A DNA stretch of 64,000 nucleotides from contig MDLF01000096.1 of NCBI GenBank assembly GCA_001730095.1, positions 261,682 to 325,681 on the forward strand, written 5' to 3'. This DNA is from Rhodobacteraceae bacterium (ex Bugula neritina AB1) (GTDB taxonomy: Bacteria > Pseudomonadota > Alphaproteobacteria > Rhodobacterales > Rhodobacteraceae). Positions 6,369 through 57,001 of the stretch are shown piece after piece. A program made the translations under genes and the position numbers. Under the pieces are notes generated by a model that saw nothing but the letters and a program-made list of their open reading frames with translations, was not told the DNA's origin and did not search any database. The stretch's first letter is position 1. Each line of letters opens with the position of its first letter.

Positions 6369-8105
6369 ATGATGAATAAAAGCCTTTACAAGAACGGATA
6401 TGATGAACTGCTTGAGGTGCGTCGGCGGAGCCGGGGTCTGTATTGGTTCACCGGGATATTCAGCTTTTTCGTGAACCTGCTGATGCTGACCGGCCCGCTG
6501 TATATGATGCAGGTCTACGACCGGGTGCTGGGCAGCCGGTCGGAGGCGACGCTTTTGGCGCTGTCGCTGCTGGTGGTGTTTCTCTACGCGATGATGGGGT
6601 TTCTGGATTACGCCCGCGGCCGGATCATGGCGCGGGTCGGCGCGCGGCTGCAGTCGGCGCTCGACAAACGGGTGTTTGATGCGATGACCCGCCGCTCGGC
6701 GGTGGCGCAGGATCCGGTGGCGCAGACCGGGCTGCAGGACCTGGAATCGGTGCAGCGGCTGATTGCCTCGCCGGTGCTCGGCGCCGCCTTTGACCTGCCC
6801 TGGACGCCGGTGTTCCTGGCCGGCATCGCCCTGTTCCACCCCTGGCTGGGGCTGCTGGCGCTGGCAGGCGGTGCGGTGCTGGTGGTGATTGCGCTGATGA
6901 ACCAGCTGTTCACCCGAGCTCCGATGCAGCAGGCCAATATGACCGGCCACAAGGCCAATCTGATGTCCGAGGAGATCCGCAACGAGGCGGAGATGATCCA
7001 GTCGATGGGCATGCGCGGCGCCGCCTTCAGCCGCTGGAAACAGGCGCGGGACGCAGCGCTGAGCGACAGCGTGACAGCCAATGACACCGGTGGTGGCTTC
7101 ACCACGCTGACCAAGACGCTGCGGCTGTTTCTGCAATCGGCAATGCTGGGGCTGGGCGCCTATCTGGTGCTGCAGGGCGAAGTGACGCCGGGCGCGATGA
7201 TCGCAGGCTCGATCCTGATGGGGCGGGCGCTGGCGCCGATTGAACTGGGCCTGGGCCAATGGCCGCTGGTGCAGCGGGCGATGAAGGGCTGGCACAGCCT
7301 GGCGGAATTGCTGGCCAAGGTGCCGCAGGAAGAGACCCGCACCGCGCTGCCCAAACCCAAGGCCCTGCTGGAAGTGCAGGGCATGGCGGCGGTGCCGCCG
7401 GGCGGCAAGACGCCCTTGCTGCGCAATGTCAACTTCCGGGTGCAGCCGGGCCAGGCGATCGGGGTGATCGGGCCGTCGGGGTCGGGCAAGTCGACGCTGG
7501 CGCGGGCGTTGACCGGGGTCTGGCCGCCAGCGGCGGGCTCGGTGCGGCTGGACGGGGCCGCGCTGGATCAATATGCGCCGGATGTGCTGGGCGGCCATAT
7601 CGGCTATCTGCCGCAGCGGGTGCAGGTGTTTGACGGCACCATTGCCCAGAACATCGCCCGGCTGCAGCCAGAGCCGGATGCCGCCAAAGTGGTGGATGCC
7701 GCCAAGAAGGCCGCCGCCCATGAGATGATCCTGAAGCTGCCCGAAGGCTATGACACCAGGGTCACCGCCACCGGCGGGCGGCTGTCGGGTGGTCAGATGC
7801 AGCGGGTCGGGCTGGCCCGGGCGCTGTATGCCGATCCGGTGATCGTGATCCTGGATGAACCCAACTCCAACCTCGACAATGAAGGCTCGATCGCGCTCAA
7901 CCAGGCGATCAAGCAGATCAAGGCGGAAGGGCGCTCGGTGCTGATCATGGCCCACCGCCCGGCGGCCATCCAGGAATGCGACATGCTGCTGGTGATCGAC
8001 GGCGGCACCCAGACCGCCTTTGGCCCCAAGGACAAGGTGCTGCAGGAAATGGTCGCCAACCATCAGAACATCCGCCAGGCAACCGGCGCAGGAGGCGTGC
8101 GATGA
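6369..8105 (+). CDS. Type I secretion system permease/ATPase (PrtD-like)
   Basis: A 578-residue ABC exporter half-transporter of the inner membrane that energises type I secretion. Residues about 25-310 form the membrane domain ([21 protein letters not shown] is typical of PrtD/LapB-type ATPases) and there is no N-terminal C39 peptidase domain. The nucleotide-binding domain has Walker [10 protein letters not shown], signature LSGGQMQR, Walker [14 protein letters not shown] and the H-loop MAHRP. Two ATGs in tandem at 6369/6372 leave the start uncertain by one codon. It overlaps the adaptor gene by ATGA. No repeat-rich secreted substrate is nearby. Confidence 0.9.
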
Positions 8106-9406
8106 GCATCGAAAGCAAATGGCCTGCCCGGCGGCCGCTGATCATCGGCCTGCTGGCGCTGCTGGTGCTGGTGGGCGGCTTCGGGTCCTGGTCGGTGCTG
8201 TCGTCGATTTCCGGCGCGGTGGTGGCGACAGGGCGCATCGAGGTCGACCGCAACCGCCAGATCGTGCAGCATCTGGATGGCGGCATCGTGGCCGAGATCC
8301 TGGTCGACGAAGGCGACACCGTGGCCGAAGGCGACACGCTCCTGCGGCTGGACGCCAATGAGCTGACCTCGCAGCTGGTGATCATCGAGGGCCAGCTGTT
8401 CGAGCTGATGGCGCGCCGCGGCCGGCTGGAAGCCGAGCGCGACACCGCCGCCGCAATCACCTTTGAGCCGGAACTTCTGCAGGCCACAGAGCAGCTGCCG
8501 GATGTAAAGGATCTGGTGGAGGGCCAGCGCCGCCTGTTCGAAGCCCGCAAGGACACCACCGCCCGCGAGATCGAACAGCTGGAGAAGCGCCGCAGCCAGA
8601 TCCAGGAGCAGATCCGTGGCATCCAGGCGCAGCAGCAGTCGATGACGGTGCAGCTGGAGCTGATCGGCGAGGAGCTGGCAAGCCAGCAGTCGCTGCTGGA
8701 CCGCGGCCTGGCGCAGGCGGCGACGGTCCTGAACCTGCGCCGCACCGAGGCCGACCTGCAGGGCCGCCTGGGAGAGCTGGTGGCCTCGGAAGCGCAATCC
8801 GAGGGCCGTATCACCGAAATCGACATCGAGATCCTGAAACTGGCCACCGGCCAGCGCGAGGAGGCGATCAGCCGGCTGCGCGACCTGCGCTACCAGGAGC
8901 TGGAGCTGGCCGAGAACCGCCGCTCGCTGCAGGGGCGGCTGGCGCGGCTGGACATCACCGCGCCGGTGTCGGGCATTGTCTACGGGCTGCAGGTGCAGAC
9001 GCCGCGCTCGGTGATCCGCGCGGCCGACCCGGTTTTGTACCTGGTGCCGCAGGACCGGCCTCTGGTGATCGCGGCACAGGTCGCCCCCACCGATATCGAC
9101 CAGCTCTACACCGGCCAGGAGGTGACGCTGCGGTTCTCGGCGCTGGACCAGCGCACGACGCCAGAGCTCTTTGGCCATGTCACCCAGGTCTCGGCGGATG
9201 CCTTTGACGACCAGGGCAGCGGGGTTTCCTATTACCGCGCCGAGATTGAATTGAACCCCGGCGAACGCGGCCGCCTGCCTGCGGGCACGGTGCTGATCCC
9301 GGGGATGCCGGTGGAAAGCTACATCCGCACCGCCGCCCGCTCACCCTTGGCCTATCTCATCAAGCCGCTGTCCGACTACTTCGTCAAAGCCTTCCGCGAA
9401 AGCTGA
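8102..9406 (+). CDS. HlyD-family periplasmic adaptor of type I secretion
   Basis: A 434-residue membrane-fusion protein linking the ABC exporter to an outer-membrane TolC channel. It has a short cytoplasmic tail, one span at about 13-35, and a biotinyl-lipoyl-like motif ([24 protein letters not shown]). A long alpha-helical coiled-coil region rich in Glu/Gln/Arg follows at about 90-290. The second lipoyl half ([18 protein letters not shown]) and a beta-barrel domain come last. The start overlaps the ATPase stop (ATGA), so the two are translationally coupled. TolC and the cargo are not in the window. Confidence 0.9.
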
Positions 9407-46756: not shown

Positions 46757-46900
46757 GACAGGAAACCTTGGATGCATTTAATTAGGAGTGGCTGCTGACG
46801 AGCATTGGCTGGTCCTGTTGGTGTTGCGGGCGACCGTATGACGGAATGCCTCTATTTGGGAATAGTGTTCTGCGCGGGCTTTGGCTTTTGGAACATATGT

Positions 46901-47929
46901 TCAAACTTCTGGATGCTTGATGTTTGCTGCCTGCAGGATGGTGACAGCGATGATCTGGGTCACATCCTCGGCGCTGCAGCCGCGCGACAGGTCGTTGGCG
47001 GGCTTGGCCAGTCCCTGCAGAACCGGGCCGATGGCGGAGTAGCCGCCCAGGCGCTGAGTGATTTTGTAGCCGATGTTGCCTGCATCCAAATTCGGGAAGA
47101 TCATCACATTGGCTTGGCCTGCAACGGCTGATCCGGGGGATTTACGCTCCCCCACCGAAGGGACAAAGGCTGCGTCGAACTGCAGTTCGCCGTCGGCTTG
47201 CAGGTCTGGGTGCGCGTCATGGAACAGTCCCAGGGCTTCGGTCACCTTGTCTACTGCCGGGTGCTTGGCGCTGCCCTTGGTTGAAAAGCTGAGAAATGCC
47301 AGCTTTGGATCTGTGCGCAGCAGTGCGCTGGCTGATTGGGCTGACGCAGCGGCAATGGAGACCATCTCGGCAGGTTTGGGATCAATCACAAGGCCGCAGT
47401 CAGAATAGAGCATCGCGCGGGCGCCTGCCGGCGCTCCCTCCGGCGGATACATTAGAAAGAAGGAGGAGATCATGCCCGCATCCGGCGCCATGCCGATTAC
47501 CTGAATGGCGCTGCGCACCACGTCACCGGTGGTGTGCACGGCGCCGCCGACAGTGCCGGTCGCGTGGCCCAGACGGACCAGCATCGCGGCATAGACCAGC
47601 GGCGTTTCTGCTGCGGCGCGGGCTTTGGCTTCGTCCACGCCCTTGTGCTTGCGCAGTTCATAGTATTCGGCGGCAAAACGGGCAGTCAGATCGGAGGTGG
47701 CAGGGTCGTGGATCGCAATGCCATCGCTTGCTGCAGAGCCTTCGGCTTGCAGCGCGGCTTCGACCTCGGCCTGCGGGCCGACCAGAATTACGTCGGTGAT
47801 TCCGGCCTGATGCGCGGCTAAAGCGCCTGCCACCACACGAGGGTCGGTGCCCTCGCTTAGCGCAATAACAGGGCGGGTGGCCGGGGCTTCGGCCCTGAGC
47901 AATTCGAGCGGAGACAAGGTATGGGTCAC
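46901..47929 (-). CDS. pta: Phosphate acetyltransferase
   Basis: A 342-residue short-type Pta that converts acetyl phosphate, the product of Xsc, to acetyl-CoA. Start is GTG at 47929 (THTLSPLELLRAEAPATRPVIALSEGTDPRVVAGALAAHQAGI), with AGGA about ten bases upstream. The family signature VGGAVHTTGDVVRSAIQVIG and the C-terminal VMIFPNLDAGNIGYKITQRLGGYSAIGPVLQGLAKPANDLSRGCSAEDV are clear. It follows the TauE-like gene by 44 bases. The 144-base gap downstream before the YeiH gene may carry a separate promoter. Confidence 0.93.
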   Translation of the reverse strand: MTHTLSPLELLRAEAPATRPVIALSEGTDPRVVAGALAAHQAGITDVILVGPQAEVEAALQAEGSAASDGIAIHDPATSDLTARFAAEYYELRKHKGVDEAKARAAAETPLVYAAMLVRLGHATGTVGGAVHTTGDVVRSAIQVIGMAPDAGMISSFFLMYPPEGAPAGARAMLYSDCGLVIDPKPAEMVSIAAASAQSASALLRTDPKLAFLSFSTKGSAKHPAVDKVTEALGLFHDAHPDLQADGELQFDAAFVPSVGERKSPGSAVAGQANVMIFPNLDAGNIGYKITQRLGGYSAIGPVLQGLAKPANDLSRGCSAEDVTQIIAVTILQAANIKHPEV

Positions 47930-50560: not shown

Positions 50561-50626
50561 TTAGGGGGCCGGTGCAGACCGGGTTAGGGCCAGTTATGAA
50601 GCCCGGATAGATCCAAAATCGGATCT
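50561..50626 (-). promoter_or_regulatory. TauR-like boxes and inverted repeat upstream of xsc
   Basis: On the minus strand, CTGGCCCTAA (50593-50584) is followed 23 bases later by CCGGCCCCCTAA (50572-50561). Just upstream is a perfect inverted repeat AGATCC-N6-GGATCT (50609-50626). The direct-repeat layout matches what I recall of TauR (MocR-type) binding sites of form CTGGAC.TAA in Rhodobacter capsulatus. The whole 258-base spacer to tauR has no gene. Confidence 0.65.
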
Positions 50627-52226: not shown

Positions 52227-52269
52227 TTAGGGTGGACTTAAATCGGGTGCAATCTGGACTTAGGGCCAG
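52227..52269. promoter_or_regulatory. TauR-like boxes upstream of tauR
   Basis: On the plus strand, GTGGACTTAA (52232-52241) and CTGGACTTAG (52254-52263) lie 22 bases apart. On the minus strand, CTGGCCCTAA (52269-52260) overlaps the second, making CTGGACTTAGGGCCAG nearly palindromic. The first plus box is only about 15 bases before the start codon, suiting negative autoregulation. Confidence 0.65.
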
Positions 52270-52541: not shown

Positions 52542-53939
52542 TCAGCCGAAAACTTTGGTCAGGGCCTTGTCGACCGCGTCGCAGATCGCGTCGATGTCGT
52601 CAGCTGTGGAGATCAGCGCAGGGCTGAAGCACAGGGTGTTGTTGCGGCCTGGCAGCGAGCGGTTGGTGGCGCCGATCAGCACACCCAGGGCGCCGCATTC
52701 TGCCACGACTGCGCCAACCTTGGCTTCTTCGACCGGTTCCTTGCTGGTGCGGTCGGAGACCAGCTCCAGGCCCTGGAACAGGCCGATGCCGCGCACGTCG
52801 CCGACAACGCTGTGCTTTTCCTGCAGCGCCAGCAGGTTCGCCTTCATGCGCTCACCCATGGCAACGGTGTTGTCCAAGAGGTTCTCATCTTCGATGATGC
52901 GCATGTTTTCCAGCGCCGCCGCCGGGCCTGCGGTGCAGCCACCGAAGGTGGAGATGTCGCGGAAGTAGTTCAGCGGGTCAGTCGGATCGGTCTTGAACAT
53001 GTCAAAGACTTCTTCGGTGGTGACCATGCAGGCGATCGCCGCATAGCCCGACGCAACGCCTTTGGCCATGGTGACGAAATCGGGCTCGATGCCGAACTGC
53101 TGGTAGCCGAACCATTTGCCTGTACGGCCCACGCCGCAGACCACTTCGTCGATGTGCAGTAGCACGTTGTACTGTTTACAGATCTCCTGAACCCGCTCCC
53201 AGTAACCTTCGGGTGCTTCGATCACGCCGCCGCCAGCGGTGATCGGCTCCAGGCACAGCAGGCCAACGGTTTCCGGGCCTTCGCGCAGGATGACCTCTTC
53301 GATCTGGTTGGCGCAGGCGATGCCGAACTCGCGGCCCGACAGATGCTCCAGACCCAGCTCGTGCTTGCGGTATTCCATGCAGTGCGGAACCTTGACGAAG
53401 TCAGGTGCAAAGGGTCCGTACTGGGAGTTGCGCTGCTCGTGGCCGCCGGCGGACATGGTCGCCAGGGTGGAGCCATGGTAGTCGCGGTCGCGGTACAGGA
53501 TTTTGGTTTTCTTGCCGTCGTATTTCTTGTGCGCCAGCTGACGCACCATCTTGAACACCTTCTCGTTCGCCTCGGAACCGGAGTTGGTGTAGTAGACGCG
53601 GGACATGCCGGGCATCTTGCTGATCAGTTTTTCAGCAAACAGCGCGCCGGGGATGGAGCCTGCGGTCTGGGCGAAGTAGCAGATTTTCATCAGCTGGTCG
53701 CGGACGGCATTTGCGATCTGCTCGCGGCCATAGCCGACGTTGACGGTCCAGACGCCGCCGGACACCGCGTCGATGTATTCCTTGCCGTTCTGATCCCAGA
53801 CCCGGATGCCCTTGCCCTCGACAATGATGCGGGGGTCGTTTTCTTCAAAGGGTTTGTGCTGGATCAGGTGATGCCAAACATTTGCTTTGTCGGCCTCGAC
53901 CACGCGGGAGAGATCGTTTTCTTTGAACGTGCCGTCCAT
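52542..53939 (-). CDS. tpa: Taurine--pyruvate aminotransferase
   Basis: A 465-residue class III PLP transaminase that moves the amino group of taurine to pyruvate, giving sulfoacetaldehyde and alanine. The PLP lysine is Lys293 (MAKGVASGY) and the cofactor Asp is Asp264 (LHIDEVVCGVGRTG). The sequence NVWHHLIQHKPFEENDPRIIVEGKGIRVWDQNGKEYIDAVSGGVWTVNVGYG is as expected for Tpa of Bilophila and roseobacters. It has its own terminator. Its promoter shares a divergent spacer with the BKACE operon and carries TauR-like boxes. No alanine dehydrogenase or taurine transporter is in the window. Confidence 0.95.
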   Translation of the reverse strand: MDGTFKENDLSRVVEADKANVWHHLIQHKPFEENDPRIIVEGKGIRVWDQNGKEYIDAVSGGVWTVNVGYGREQIANAVRDQLMKICYFAQTAGSIPGALFAEKLISKMPGMSRVYYTNSGSEANEKVFKMVRQLAHKKYDGKKTKILYRDRDYHGSTLATMSAGGHEQRNSQYGPFAPDFVKVPHCMEYRKHELGLEHLSGREFGIACANQIEEVILREGPETVGLLCLEPITAGGGVIEAPEGYWERVQEICKQYNVLLHIDEVVCGVGRTGKWFGYQQFGIEPDFVTMAKGVASGYAAIACMVTTEEVFDMFKTDPTDPLNYFRDISTFGGCTAGPAAALENMRIIEDENLLDNTVAMGERMKANLLALQEKHSVVGDVRGIGLFQGLELVSDRTSKEPVEEAKVGAVVAECGALGVLIGATNRSLPGRNNTLCFSPALISTADDIDAICDAVDKALTKVFG

Positions 53940-54005
53940 GACATGTCCTTTCGGCGTTAGAAGTGAATAAAGCTGCCTGTCAGCCTACATTGGCTTTGAG
54001 GCGTA

Positions 54006-54049
54006 TTATGTACCAGAAACGTCAGTTCCGTGTAATTCGTTAGGGCCAG
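54006..54049 (-). promoter_or_regulatory. TauR-like boxes in the tpa / BKACE divergent spacer
   Basis: On the minus strand, CTGGCCCTAA (54049-54040), identical to the boxes before xsc and tauR, is followed by CTGGTACATAA (54016-54006). They lie about 65-110 bases upstream of tpa and 170-215 bases upstream of the BKACE gene on the other strand. The 279-base spacer has no gene and an AT-rich part at 54100-54135 suitable for the plus-strand promoter. Confidence 0.65.
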
Positions 54050-54218
54050 AGCATGTGCTTGCTTAAGTCCAGCGTGGTCTGTTTCGGGCGGCAGGCTGAT
54101 ACGATTTAAAAAAACATTTGTTTGCAATTTGACTTGTTGAGATCGGGCGTTCTGTCGAGCCAGACTGTGCAAACCCGGGCCGCCTGTTGCGGCTGGGCAG
54201 GCCAAAAGGAGAGGGCCA

Positions 54219-54995
54219 GTGGCTGAGTTCACTCTGATGGTGGCGCCAAACGGCGCCCGGCGCACAGGCGCGGAGCATCCGCAGCTGCCGGTGACCCCAG
54301 TGCAAACAGCCCGGACCGCCGCAGCCTGTTTTGCTGCAGGCGCCGGGGCGCTGCACCTGCATGTTCGGGATGATGAGGGGCGTCACTCGCTGGATCCGGG
54401 GCGCTACCGCGAAGCTATTGATGCGGTGCAGGAAAGCGCGCCGGGGATGGCGGTGCAGATCACCACCGAAAGCGCCGGCATCTATGATCTGGCAGCTCAG
54501 CTCGGCTGCTTGGAGGCGCTGCGCCCACATGCAGCTTCGATCTCGGTGCGGGAAATGGCGCGTGATCCGCAGTTGGCTGCATGTGCCTATGCGCTGTGTC
54601 TGGAGACTGGCACGCGCGTGCAGCATATCCTCTATGGCCCTGGCTGCATTGCCCGGTTGAAGGCCTGGTATATGGACGGCACGGTACCGGACAGCATGCG
54701 CGATGCCATCTTTGTTCTGGGCACATACACCCCGCCGGTTCTGGCGCGGCCCGAAGGATTGGCTGCTTTCCGTGACGCAACGGCAGAATTGCGCCTGAAC
54801 TGGACTGTCTGCGCCTTTGGCCGCAACGAGCACGCCTGTCTGCTGGCTGCGGTGGCTGCAGGCGGGGATGTGCGAATCGGATTTGAGAATAACATTGAAA
54901 CACCGGAGGGCGGGCTGCTGGCAGACAATGCTGCGTCGGTTGCGGCCTTCGTTCAGGCCGCGCGGGACGCAGGCCATCGTCTCAAGGAGAACTGA
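54219..54995 (+). CDS. BKACE-family beta-keto acid cleavage enzyme
   Basis: A 258-residue TIM-barrel enzyme (DUF849), expected to condense a beta-keto acid with acetyl-CoA and split it to a new acyl-CoA and acetoacetate. Zinc ligands His46 and His48 and Arg50 are in HLHVRDDEGRHSLDP, and the later Glu223 is in VRIGFENN. The residue after that Glu is Asn224; in most BKACE members it is Asp (..GLEDN), so substrate handling may differ. It is shorter than the usual 275-310. Start is GTG after AAAAGGAG. It is followed after two bases by an aminotransferase gene and is divergent from tpa. Confidence 0.8.
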   Translation: MAEFTLMVAPNGARRTGAEHPQLPVTPVQTARTAAACFAAGAGALHLHVRDDEGRHSLDPGRYREAIDAVQESAPGMAVQITTESAGIYDLAAQLGCLEALRPHAASISVREMARDPQLAACAYALCLETGTRVQHILYGPGCIARLKAWYMDGTVPDSMRDAIFVLGTYTPPVLARPEGLAAFRDATAELRLNWTVCAFGRNEHACLLAAVAAGGDVRIGFENNIETPEGGLLADNAASVAAFVQAARDAGHRLKEN

Positions 54996-54997
54996 AC

Positions 54998-56326
54998 ATG
55001 TCTCATGTCTTCCCACGCCACACCAGGGCTGCACTGCCCGCCGCCGTTTCCGGCGATGGCTGCTATCTGATCGACGCAGACGGCAAGCGCTACTTTGACG
55101 GCTCTGGCGGTGCTGCGGTGTCCTGCCTTGGCCATTCCGACGCAGATGTCATCAAGGCGGTGCAGGATCAGGTCGGCAAATTGGCCTTTGCCCACACCGG
55201 ATTCCTTACCTCGGGACCTGCCGAGGAACTGGCAGACCTGCTGGTCGCCCACGCGCCGGGAGATATCGACCGGGTGTATTTCGTATCCGGCGGCTCAGAG
55301 GCGACCGAGGCGGCGATCAAACTGGCCCGCCAGTATCACCTGGAACGCGGTGAGCCGCAGCGCCGACACCTGATTGCCCGCAAGCAAAGCTATCACGGCA
55401 ACACCCTTGGGGCCCTGGCCGCTGGCGGCAACGCATGGCGCCGCGCCCAGTTTGCGCCGCTGTTGATCGAAATCTCCCACATCTCGCCCTGCTACGAATA
55501 CGTTGGCCGGACAGAGGCAGAGAGCAGCTACGGTTACGGTCAGCGGGTGGCAAACGAACTGGAGGAGGAAATCCTCCGCCTAGGCCCGGAGACCGTGATG
55601 GCCTTCATGGCGGAACCGGTGGTCGGTGCGACCGCTGGCGCGGTTCCGGCGGTTGAGGGATATTTCAAGCGCATCCGCGAGATTTGCGACCAGTACGGCG
55701 TTCTGCTGATCCTGGATGAAGTGATGTGCGGCATGGGCCGTACCGGCCATCTGTTTGCTTGCGAAGCAGACGGTGTGGCGCCTGATATCCTGTGTATCGC
55801 CAAGGGCCTGGGGGCGGGTTACCAGCCGATTGGCGCCATGCTTTGCTCCAAACAGATCTACGAGGCGATTGAACGTGGCTCTGGCTTCTTCCAGCACGGG
55901 CACACCTATATCGGTCACCCGGTTGCCACTGCTGCCGGTCTTGCCGTGGTCAAGGCTATGTTGGAGCGCGGTCTGGTGCAGCGCTGCGCGGACATGGGAG
56001 AAAAGCTGCAAGCAGCGCTGGAGGCGCGCTTTGGCCAGCATCCTAATGTCGGCGACATCCGTGGCCGCGGATTGTTCCGCGGGGTGGAGCTGGTCGCCGA
56101 CCGCGCAACCAAGGAACCTTTCGACCCTGCGCTGGGGCTGGCTGCCGGGATCAAGAAGGCCGCGTTTCAGGCCGGGCTGATCTGCTACCCGATGTCCGGT
56201 ACCCGCGACGGCAGAAACGGCGACCACATCCTGCTGGCACCGCCTTTCATAATCACCGATGAACAGATCACCGAAGTCGTGGACAAGCTGGAAGCCGCTA
56301 TCACCCAGTGCCTGCCGAACAGCTAA
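54998..56326 (+). CDS. Class III aminotransferase of unknown substrate
   Basis: A 442-residue PLP aminotransferase. The PLP lysine is Lys269 (LCIAKGLGAGYQP), the cofactor Asp is Asp240 (LLILDEVMCGMGRTG), and the phosphate-binding stretch is VSGGSEATEAAIKLARQY. It is related to omega-amino-acid transaminases but clearly distinct from the nearby Tpa. It starts two bases after the BKACE stop. The pairing suggests it makes a beta-keto acid from a beta-amino acid for BKACE to cleave. The substrate is not readable from the sequence. Confidence 0.85.
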   Translation: MSHVFPRHTRAALPAAVSGDGCYLIDADGKRYFDGSGGAAVSCLGHSDADVIKAVQDQVGKLAFAHTGFLTSGPAEELADLLVAHAPGDIDRVYFVSGGSEATEAAIKLARQYHLERGEPQRRHLIARKQSYHGNTLGALAAGGNAWRRAQFAPLLIEISHISPCYEYVGRTEAESSYGYGQRVANELEEEILRLGPETVMAFMAEPVVGATAGAVPAVEGYFKRIREICDQYGVLLILDEVMCGMGRTGHLFACEADGVAPDILCIAKGLGAGYQPIGAMLCSKQIYEAIERGSGFFQHGHTYIGHPVATAAGLAVVKAMLERGLVQRCADMGEKLQAALEARFGQHPNVGDIRGRGLFRGVELVADRATKEPFDPALGLAAGIKKAAFQAGLICYPMSGTRDGRNGDHILLAPPFIITDEQITEVVDKLEAAITQCLPNS

Positions 56327-56332
56327 TCAGTC

Positions 56333-57001
56333 TTATCGCAATTCAGTTTCAGCGGCGCCAAGCTGCTCCAGAATACTGGTGTAATTCTCAATGCCCTGGG
56401 CACCGGTCACCAGGTGACGGCCGTTGAACACCATGGCGGGAACCCCGCGGATGCCTTGGCCCACCCAAAACGCTTCGCGCTGACGCACGCTGTCGGCGTG
56501 TTTGCCGCTTTCCAGTGCCGCCCGCGCCTCTGTTCCGTCCAGCCCGAGGCTGTCGGCCGTGTCGATCAGAACGCCCACGTCGGAAACATCTCTGCCATCG
56601 GTGAAATAGGCCTGCAGCAGCGCCTGTTTCATCGGGTGACCCTTGCCGCGTTCTTCGGCCCATTCGATCAGCTGATGCGCCTGGAATGTGTTGTAGATCC
56701 GCATGCCGGCAAAGAAATTGAAGGTGAACCCTAAAGCCTCCCCCAGTTCCGTCAGCTGCGCCCGGACCTGCGCCGATTGCTCTGCAGTGCTGCCATATTT
56801 GGCTGCCAGATGCGCGCGCAGGTCTTCACCTTCGGGCGCCATGTCCGGGTTCAGCTCAAACGGCTGCCAATGGACATCCAAAGATACACCCGCACGGCGG
56901 GCGGCAAAGGCCAGCTGACTGTATCCCGCGGCGCACCAGGGGCAGACCACATCCGAGACGATGTCTACGCGCAGCACCGGAAGGCTGGAAGTATCCGCCA
57001 T
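56333..57001 (-). CDS. DsbA-family (FrnE-like) oxidoreductase
   Basis: A 222-residue thioredoxin-fold protein with the redox motif CPWC (Cys20, Cys23) and the inserted helical domain of the DsbA/FrnE/2-hydroxychromene isomerase family. The closing cis-Pro region is GIRGVPAMVFNGRHLVTGAQ. No signal peptide is seen, so it is cytoplasmic like FrnE. The role may be disulfide exchange or glutathione-linked chemistry. It converges on the aminotransferase gene with six bases between the stops. Confidence 0.85.
   Translation of the reverse strand: MADTSSLPVLRVDIVSDVVCPWCAAGYSQLAFAARRAGVSLDVHWQPFELNPDMAPEGEDLRAHLAAKYGSTAEQSAQVRAQLTELGEALGFTFNFFAGMRIYNTFQAHQLIEWAEERGKGHPMKQALLQAYFTDGRDVSDVGVLIDTADSLGLDGTEARAALESGKHADSVRQREAFWVGQGIRGVPAMVFNGRHLVTGAQGIENYTSILEQLGAAETELR

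Follow-up and report, generated by a model that had tools for sequence, protein, structure and literature searches.

A conserved DUF849-aminotransferase gene pair of Rhodobacteraceae, possibly the core of a module for beta-amino dicarboxylate catabolism

Gene content of the locus

The window is the whole stretch of 64,000 nucleotides analysed here (contig MDLF01000096.1 of Rhodobacteraceae bacterium (ex Bugula neritina AB1)), and coordinates refer to it unless a locus is named. A GTG-started gene encodes a 258-aa protein of the DUF849/BKACE family (54219-54995, +; Pfam BKACE PF05853, E 8e-54). It is followed, after two bases, by an ATG-started gene that encodes a 442-aa class III aminotransferase of the PRK07483 type (54998-56326, +; Pfam Aminotran_3, E 1.1e-98). 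Both genes are divergent from tpa, a taurine-pyruvate aminotransferase-like neighbour (52542-53939, -). The window ORFs thus confirm the gene placement proposed by a previous sequence-only reading of this DNA. The aminotransferase scores 770 bits against the NCBIfam model PRK07483 (cut-off 485) and carries K269, presumably the PLP lysine, in the motif AKGLGAG.

The genes found past tpa are a MocR gene, xsc, a TauE-family gene and pta. The xsc protein exceeds its NCBIfam cut-off, and the MocR protein scores 351 bits with the model named PdxR, above the cut-off of 320. The tpa protein reaches no cut-off among the 25 NCBIfam matches listed of 69, and the names tpa and TauR are given at this locus from context and motif only. 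A scan of 53935-56420 for sigma-70 promoters found no site (0.3 expected), and the same interval has two terminator-like sites (2.3 expected).

Conservation of the pair and distribution of the tpa neighbourhood

In all 20 genomes of the same genus, the DUF849/BKACE gene is arranged face to face with tpa, and the aminotransferase gene follows it in 18 of them, an arrangement that exceeds chance. In G017, the BKACE gene is divided between two contigs, and the aminotransferase gene adjoins its other half on the second; in G005, it would fall past a contig end. Three more distant genomes of this set include two that carry the pair without tpa (L050 and L051) and one that carries the DUF849 gene without either (L049).

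Two larger sets were then compared: a named set (the best 80 of 380 confirmed stretches) and a second set of 100 loci, which is a part of all matches. Twelve loci of the second set repeat named ones, and the union holds 168 distinct loci. The aminotransferase gene was counted as adjacent if it lay on the same strand, within 500 bp and with at least 50% identity. It is adjacent in 71 loci of the named set and near in 3, and adjacent in 69 loci of the second set and near in 3, while tpa is found in 24 and 4, respectively. Both gene orders occur (63 + 8 in the named set and 42 + 27 in the second set, 12 loci being common). Over the union, the aminotransferase gene is adjacent in 128 of the 168 loci, and tpa is a neighbour in 25, all from one clade. 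A FastTree tree of 171 rows accounts for the tpa neighbourhood with one change if L073, which carries a partial tpa, is left out and with two changes if it is scored as lacking tpa. This is consistent with a single origin.

According to these locus counts and this tree, the pair is widespread and the tpa neighbourhood is confined to one clade. The DUF849-aminotransferase association is a conserved two-gene pair of many Rhodobacteraceae and of some other Proteobacteria, so that the two genes do form a unit, as had been suggested. The sequence-only reading had proposed conservation in relatives, of the pair and of its position beside tpa, as a test: the pair is kept far beyond tpa, but its place beside tpa is not. 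We do not count tpa, limited to one clade, as part of the module, and the pair is not mainly about taurine. The loci L066 and L119 match genomes grouped with Rhodobacteraceae although their records bear the titles Nocardioides marinus and Oceanobacillus sp.; these titles are perhaps wrong.

Two kinds of putative operators in the tpa spacer

The spacer between tpa and the pair was aligned for 25 loci (the window and 24 loci with tpa). It contains two conserved TauR-type boxes. Box 1, CTGGACTTAA (54063-54072, -), begins with CTGG in 25/25 spacers and box 2, CTGGCCCTAA (54040-54049, -), reads [CT]TGG[AC]CCTA in 25/25. They are direct repeats, 23 bp apart in the window, and both are directed towards tpa, away from the DUF849-aminotransferase side, although they may also act on the divergent genes. 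The TauR consensus of R. capsulatus is given as CTGGACYTAA, and Tpa-related aminotransferases are listed in some TauR regulons (PMC5320631); the main text of that paper mentions neither COG3246 nor DUF849.

The sequence-only reading had paired CTGGCCCTAA with CTGGTACATAA (54006-54016, -). Both are present, but the latter was rejected as a TauR box: it is exact in only 10 of the 25 aligned spacers, all from Leisingera, and immediately follows a TGACGTTT/TTGGCGTTTCG element whose conservation is better. The true partner of CTGGCCCTAA is box 1, which that reading had missed. Single copies of CTGGCCCTAA are also found at 50584-50593 (-), upstream of xsc, and at 52260-52269 (-), upstream of the MocR gene; they would fit a TauR-type regulon of larger extent.

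On its BKACE side, the spacer harbors an RpiR-type palindrome core, AACATTTGTT (14-mer AAAACATTTGTTTG; 54113-54122, unstranded), which precedes the DUF849 start by 97 bp. The core AACANNTGTT occurs in 16 of the 25 tpa spacers (200 dinucleotide shuffles: mean 0.11, maximum 2), counts to be read knowing that it was picked after inspection of the same, mutually related spacers. It is missing from the other 9, and the window palindrome is a weak copy. The core is also present in 14/33 and 18/39 spacers with a divergent RpiR gene (shuffle means 0.18 and 0.30, maximum 2), and in 30 of the 65 distinct spacers in which RpiR is divergent from the module. In the window, the end of pta has a second copy of the core (46892-46901).

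Furthermore, the arms of the palindrome track the regulator subtype: GAAACA..TGTTTC goes with one RpiR group and mostly ATAACA..TGTTAT with another. The genome of the window (G000) encodes an RpiR protein that is unlinked to the pair (G000:C44) and is nearest to those of L074/L191 (59%), L111 (55%) and L225 (54%). The spacers of these loci have arms similar to the sites of the tpa clade (AAAACA..TGTTCT at L074/L191 and L111, GAAACA..TGTTTT at L225). L203 and L098 encode less similar RpiR proteins, yet their sites also end with TGTTCT (CT-type arms). The exact palindrome AGAACANNTGTTCT is found in 4 of 21 Leisingera genomes (reversed control pattern: 2/21) and is absent from G000. Three of these genomes (G011, G015 and G017) have it immediately upstream of the pair, and G020 has it on another contig. 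Near the RpiR homologues themselves, G111 has a 10-of-12 match upstream, and in G375 (L334, 56% identical to the RpiR protein of G000) AAAACAAATGTTCT lies within the 5' part of the called ORF. By the RpiR homologues of G000, G002 and G330, no match is better than 9 of 12, and G008 has 6 of 12; the RpiR gene of G000 thus lacks a good copy upstream. These sequence comparisons suggest that the pair is probably controlled in trans by an RpiR protein and that taurine would not be needed.

These data bear on the proposal that a taurine-like compound or aminosulfonate is transaminated, cleaved by BKACE and induced with taurine degradation through TauR. In the tpa clade, the pair and tpa have a common spacer with TauR-type boxes, and xsc is somewhat commoner in genomes that encode the subfamily (79/106) than in those that do not (169/288), a weak association for which kinship was ignored. 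However, the tpa neighbourhood fits a single origin, both boxes are directed to tpa, 27 of the 106 subfamily genomes have no xsc match, and the proposed catalytic base is absent from this DUF849 subfamily (see below). The sulfonate reading loses further ground through the RpiR-type core of the spacer and the RpiR homologue encoded elsewhere in the genome, and we consider it very improbable. The taurine locus (tpa/xsc with TauR) adjoins the pair in one clade, where TauR-type boxes are present for tpa, whereas the pair is common without tpa and has its own RpiR-type operator core.

Active site of the DUF849 subfamily

According to its Pfam match and its AlphaFold2 model (mean pLDDT 96.5), the window protein has the DUF849/BKACE fold, with the TIM barrel of Kce as the closest fold in a Foldseek search (2y7e, TM 0.90). 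It matches four NCBIfam models without reaching any cut-off (best 102 bits versus 382), and the known BKACE equivalogs were therefore discarded as names for it. Residues were counted over 169 distinct sequences (the window and 168 loci), after an earlier comparison of the window and the 80 named sequences; the numbering follows an alignment with Kce derived here.

The zinc ligands H46, H48 and E223 and the conserved R219 (H46, H48, E230 and R226 in Kce) are kept in 169/169 sequences. In contrast, E14, E143 and D231 of Kce, a protein with about 29% identity, are replaced by R14, I137 and N224 in 81/81 sequences (window and 80 named). Over the 169 sequences, I137, N224 and E112 are invariant, and E84, Y139 and R14 are found in 168, 163 and 162, respectively. 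The comparison with BKACE15 of Paracoccus denitrificans (8rio, 8rip, 9hnf) gives the same picture. The fold is common, and Y173, R254 and E258 correspond to Y139, R219 and E223, but a 48-member profile aligns E171, the proposed base, with I137, and D259 aligns with Asn. The substitution E171L is reported to abolish the activity of BKACE15 (PMC11961710). Since all 169 sequences have Ile at the position of the proposed catalytic Glu, canonical acetyl-CoA cleavage is doubtful for the subfamily. The BKACE identity given in the sequence-only reading holds for the fold and the zinc ligands, while the canonical chemistry is questionable. Moreover, Arg14 could hold a second carboxylate of the substrate.

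The DUF849 protein may instead be a non-BKACE decarboxylase, hydrolase or lyase, with the aminotransferase acting in a pathway devoid of beta-keto acid. The invariant changes from Glu to Ile and from Asp to Asn would suit such a function. Table 7 of PMC4922564 describes the DUF849 groups G6 and G7 as 'not BKACE', G6 with decarboxylation; cis-epoxysuccinate hydrolase has the same fold in the structure search, and BsfD is an example of divergent chemistry (PMC12871164). We nevertheless hold this function to be rather unlikely, as keto-forming neighbours recur across different contexts. A class III aminotransferase, Kat, is also known from a Kce pathway (PMC3149608), but it acts after Kce, on a CoA ester.

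Partner genes of the pair in other genomes

Many loci carry other genes near the pair. These encode a TAXI binding protein (78 of the 168 distinct loci), a DctM-type TRAP permease (75), an SIS/RpiR regulator (69) and a DAO+GCV_T (FAD/GcvT) oxidoreductase whose best PDB match is dimethylglycine dehydrogenase (26). None of the sought partners was found in 33 of the 168. The 143 loci without tpa account for the same 78 TAXI, 75 permease and 69 RpiR genes, and 104 of them have the aminotransferase gene. In the genome of the window, both the TAXI-TRAP importer and RpiR are unlinked to the pair. At L325 (6678-10661; G375, of the tpa clade), RpiR and FAD/GcvT genes are grouped apart from the pair with a TAXI gene that is short and seems to be truncated; this cluster is a possible remnant of an ancestral operon.

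Loci that lack this aminotransferase were scanned with one representative per type (two for the L250-type dehydrogenase). L250 encodes a carnitine-dehydrogenase-like enzyme (276 bits versus a cut-off of 414) and a different class III aminotransferase; L258 resembles it and L251 has the carnitine-dehydrogenase-like enzyme. The arrangement of L250 and L258 looks like a variant pathway. A gene of the 3-hydroxyacyl dehydrogenase family lies by the DUF849 gene in L254, and a class V aminotransferase gene in L286. In L119 (the L049 stretch), the subfamily gene (7318-8463) lies beside genes for a class IV aminotransferase and a BhcC-like 3-hydroxy-D-aspartate aldolase (665 bits versus a cut-off of 690). 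Seven loci (L216, L227, L232, L245, L269, L281 and L284) associate the DUF849 gene with a luciferase-like monooxygenase, a flavin reductase and a LysR gene, some with additional PcaD-like and OsmC genes. This is another uncharacterised degradation set. Since several of the alternative partners form keto groups, a tally made with no count against chance, a beta-keto acid substrate stays plausible.

Substrate candidates

Near the module, 84 TAXI proteins are encoded, 77 of them distinct, which share 52-70% identity with the solved chain of 8s4j, the glutamate-binding protein VcGluP of a TAXI-TRAP transporter. Eight of the 12 ligand contacts checked (V44, Y45, Y46, S75, Q93, H123, E125 and G156) are kept in 77/77, while S40, D157 and M201 of VcGluP are replaced and Y200 is found in 46 of the 77. 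Y45 and Q93 are described as key determinants; among TAXI sequences at large, Y45 occurs in 78% and Q93 in 54% (PMC11574862). Since the linked proteins are closely related and these two residues are common, the contacts carry limited weight. The unlinked homologue in the window genome is 60% identical to VcGluP. VcGluP-like TAXI proteins are encoded by 77 of the 106 genomes with the subfamily and by 111 of the 288 without it (odds ratio 4.2, kinship ignored). The linked TAXI may simply carry L-glutamate.

The TAXI features and Arg14 together indicate an amino dicarboxylate as substrate. If it is a beta-amino dicarboxylate, its transamination yields a beta-keto acid. Beta-glutamate fits this profile; it has been described in marine archaea (PMC8269262, PMC1224877), with a reported 730 mM for Nitrosopumilus maritimus (PMC8269262). 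The choice of this compound stands on transporter homology and one residue, Arg14, and it does not account for the FAD/GcvT oxidoreductase. This enzyme would find a role if the substrate was another beta-amino acid, perhaps N-methylated: it would demethylate it first, the aminotransferase would form the beta-keto acid and the DUF849 protein would split this acid with a relocated base, for instance E84 or E112, the new acids of the subfamily. However, the FAD enzyme is missing near most loci, and the TAXI proteins and Arg14 speak for a dicarboxylate; an N-methylated or other beta-amino acid is possible but rather unlikely.

Proposed catabolic module

The breakdown of a beta-amino acid, as put forward by the sequence-only reading, is still the best reading of the pair. 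The explanation that we favor, tentatively and with less than even confidence, is a catabolic module that imports and transaminates a beta-amino dicarboxylate, foremost beta-glutamate, then cleaves or decarboxylates the product. The genes at 54219-56326 would be its two-enzyme core. The TAXI-TRAP importer would take up a glutamate-like beta-amino dicarboxylate, with beta-glutamate (3-aminoglutarate) as the best candidate, and the aminotransferase would convert beta-glutamate to 3-oxoglutarate. The zinc DUF849 protein would then yield acetoacetate from 3-oxoglutarate, either with acetyl-CoA, giving also malonyl-CoA, or by decarboxylation. An RpiR protein, acting in trans, would probably control the two genes. 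That the pair and the TAXI-TRAP transporter specifically form a bacterial route of beta-glutamate degradation via 3-oxoglutarate, the DUF849 protein having lost the usual base and acting by decarboxylation or through a relocated base, is a more speculative proposal that we would rate as unlikely rather than likely. Among the titles and abstract openings surveyed in the openly licensed literature, we found no account of this pair or of a beta-glutamate degradation pathway.

The case of tpa illustrates that a gene neighbourhood can mislead. If the substrate is beta-glutamate, the module would link roseobacters to the turnover of an archaeal osmolyte and provide them with a route to carbon and nitrogen. 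If true, the pathway would break down a compound that is more abundant than any other metabolite identified in a marine ammonia-oxidising archaeon.
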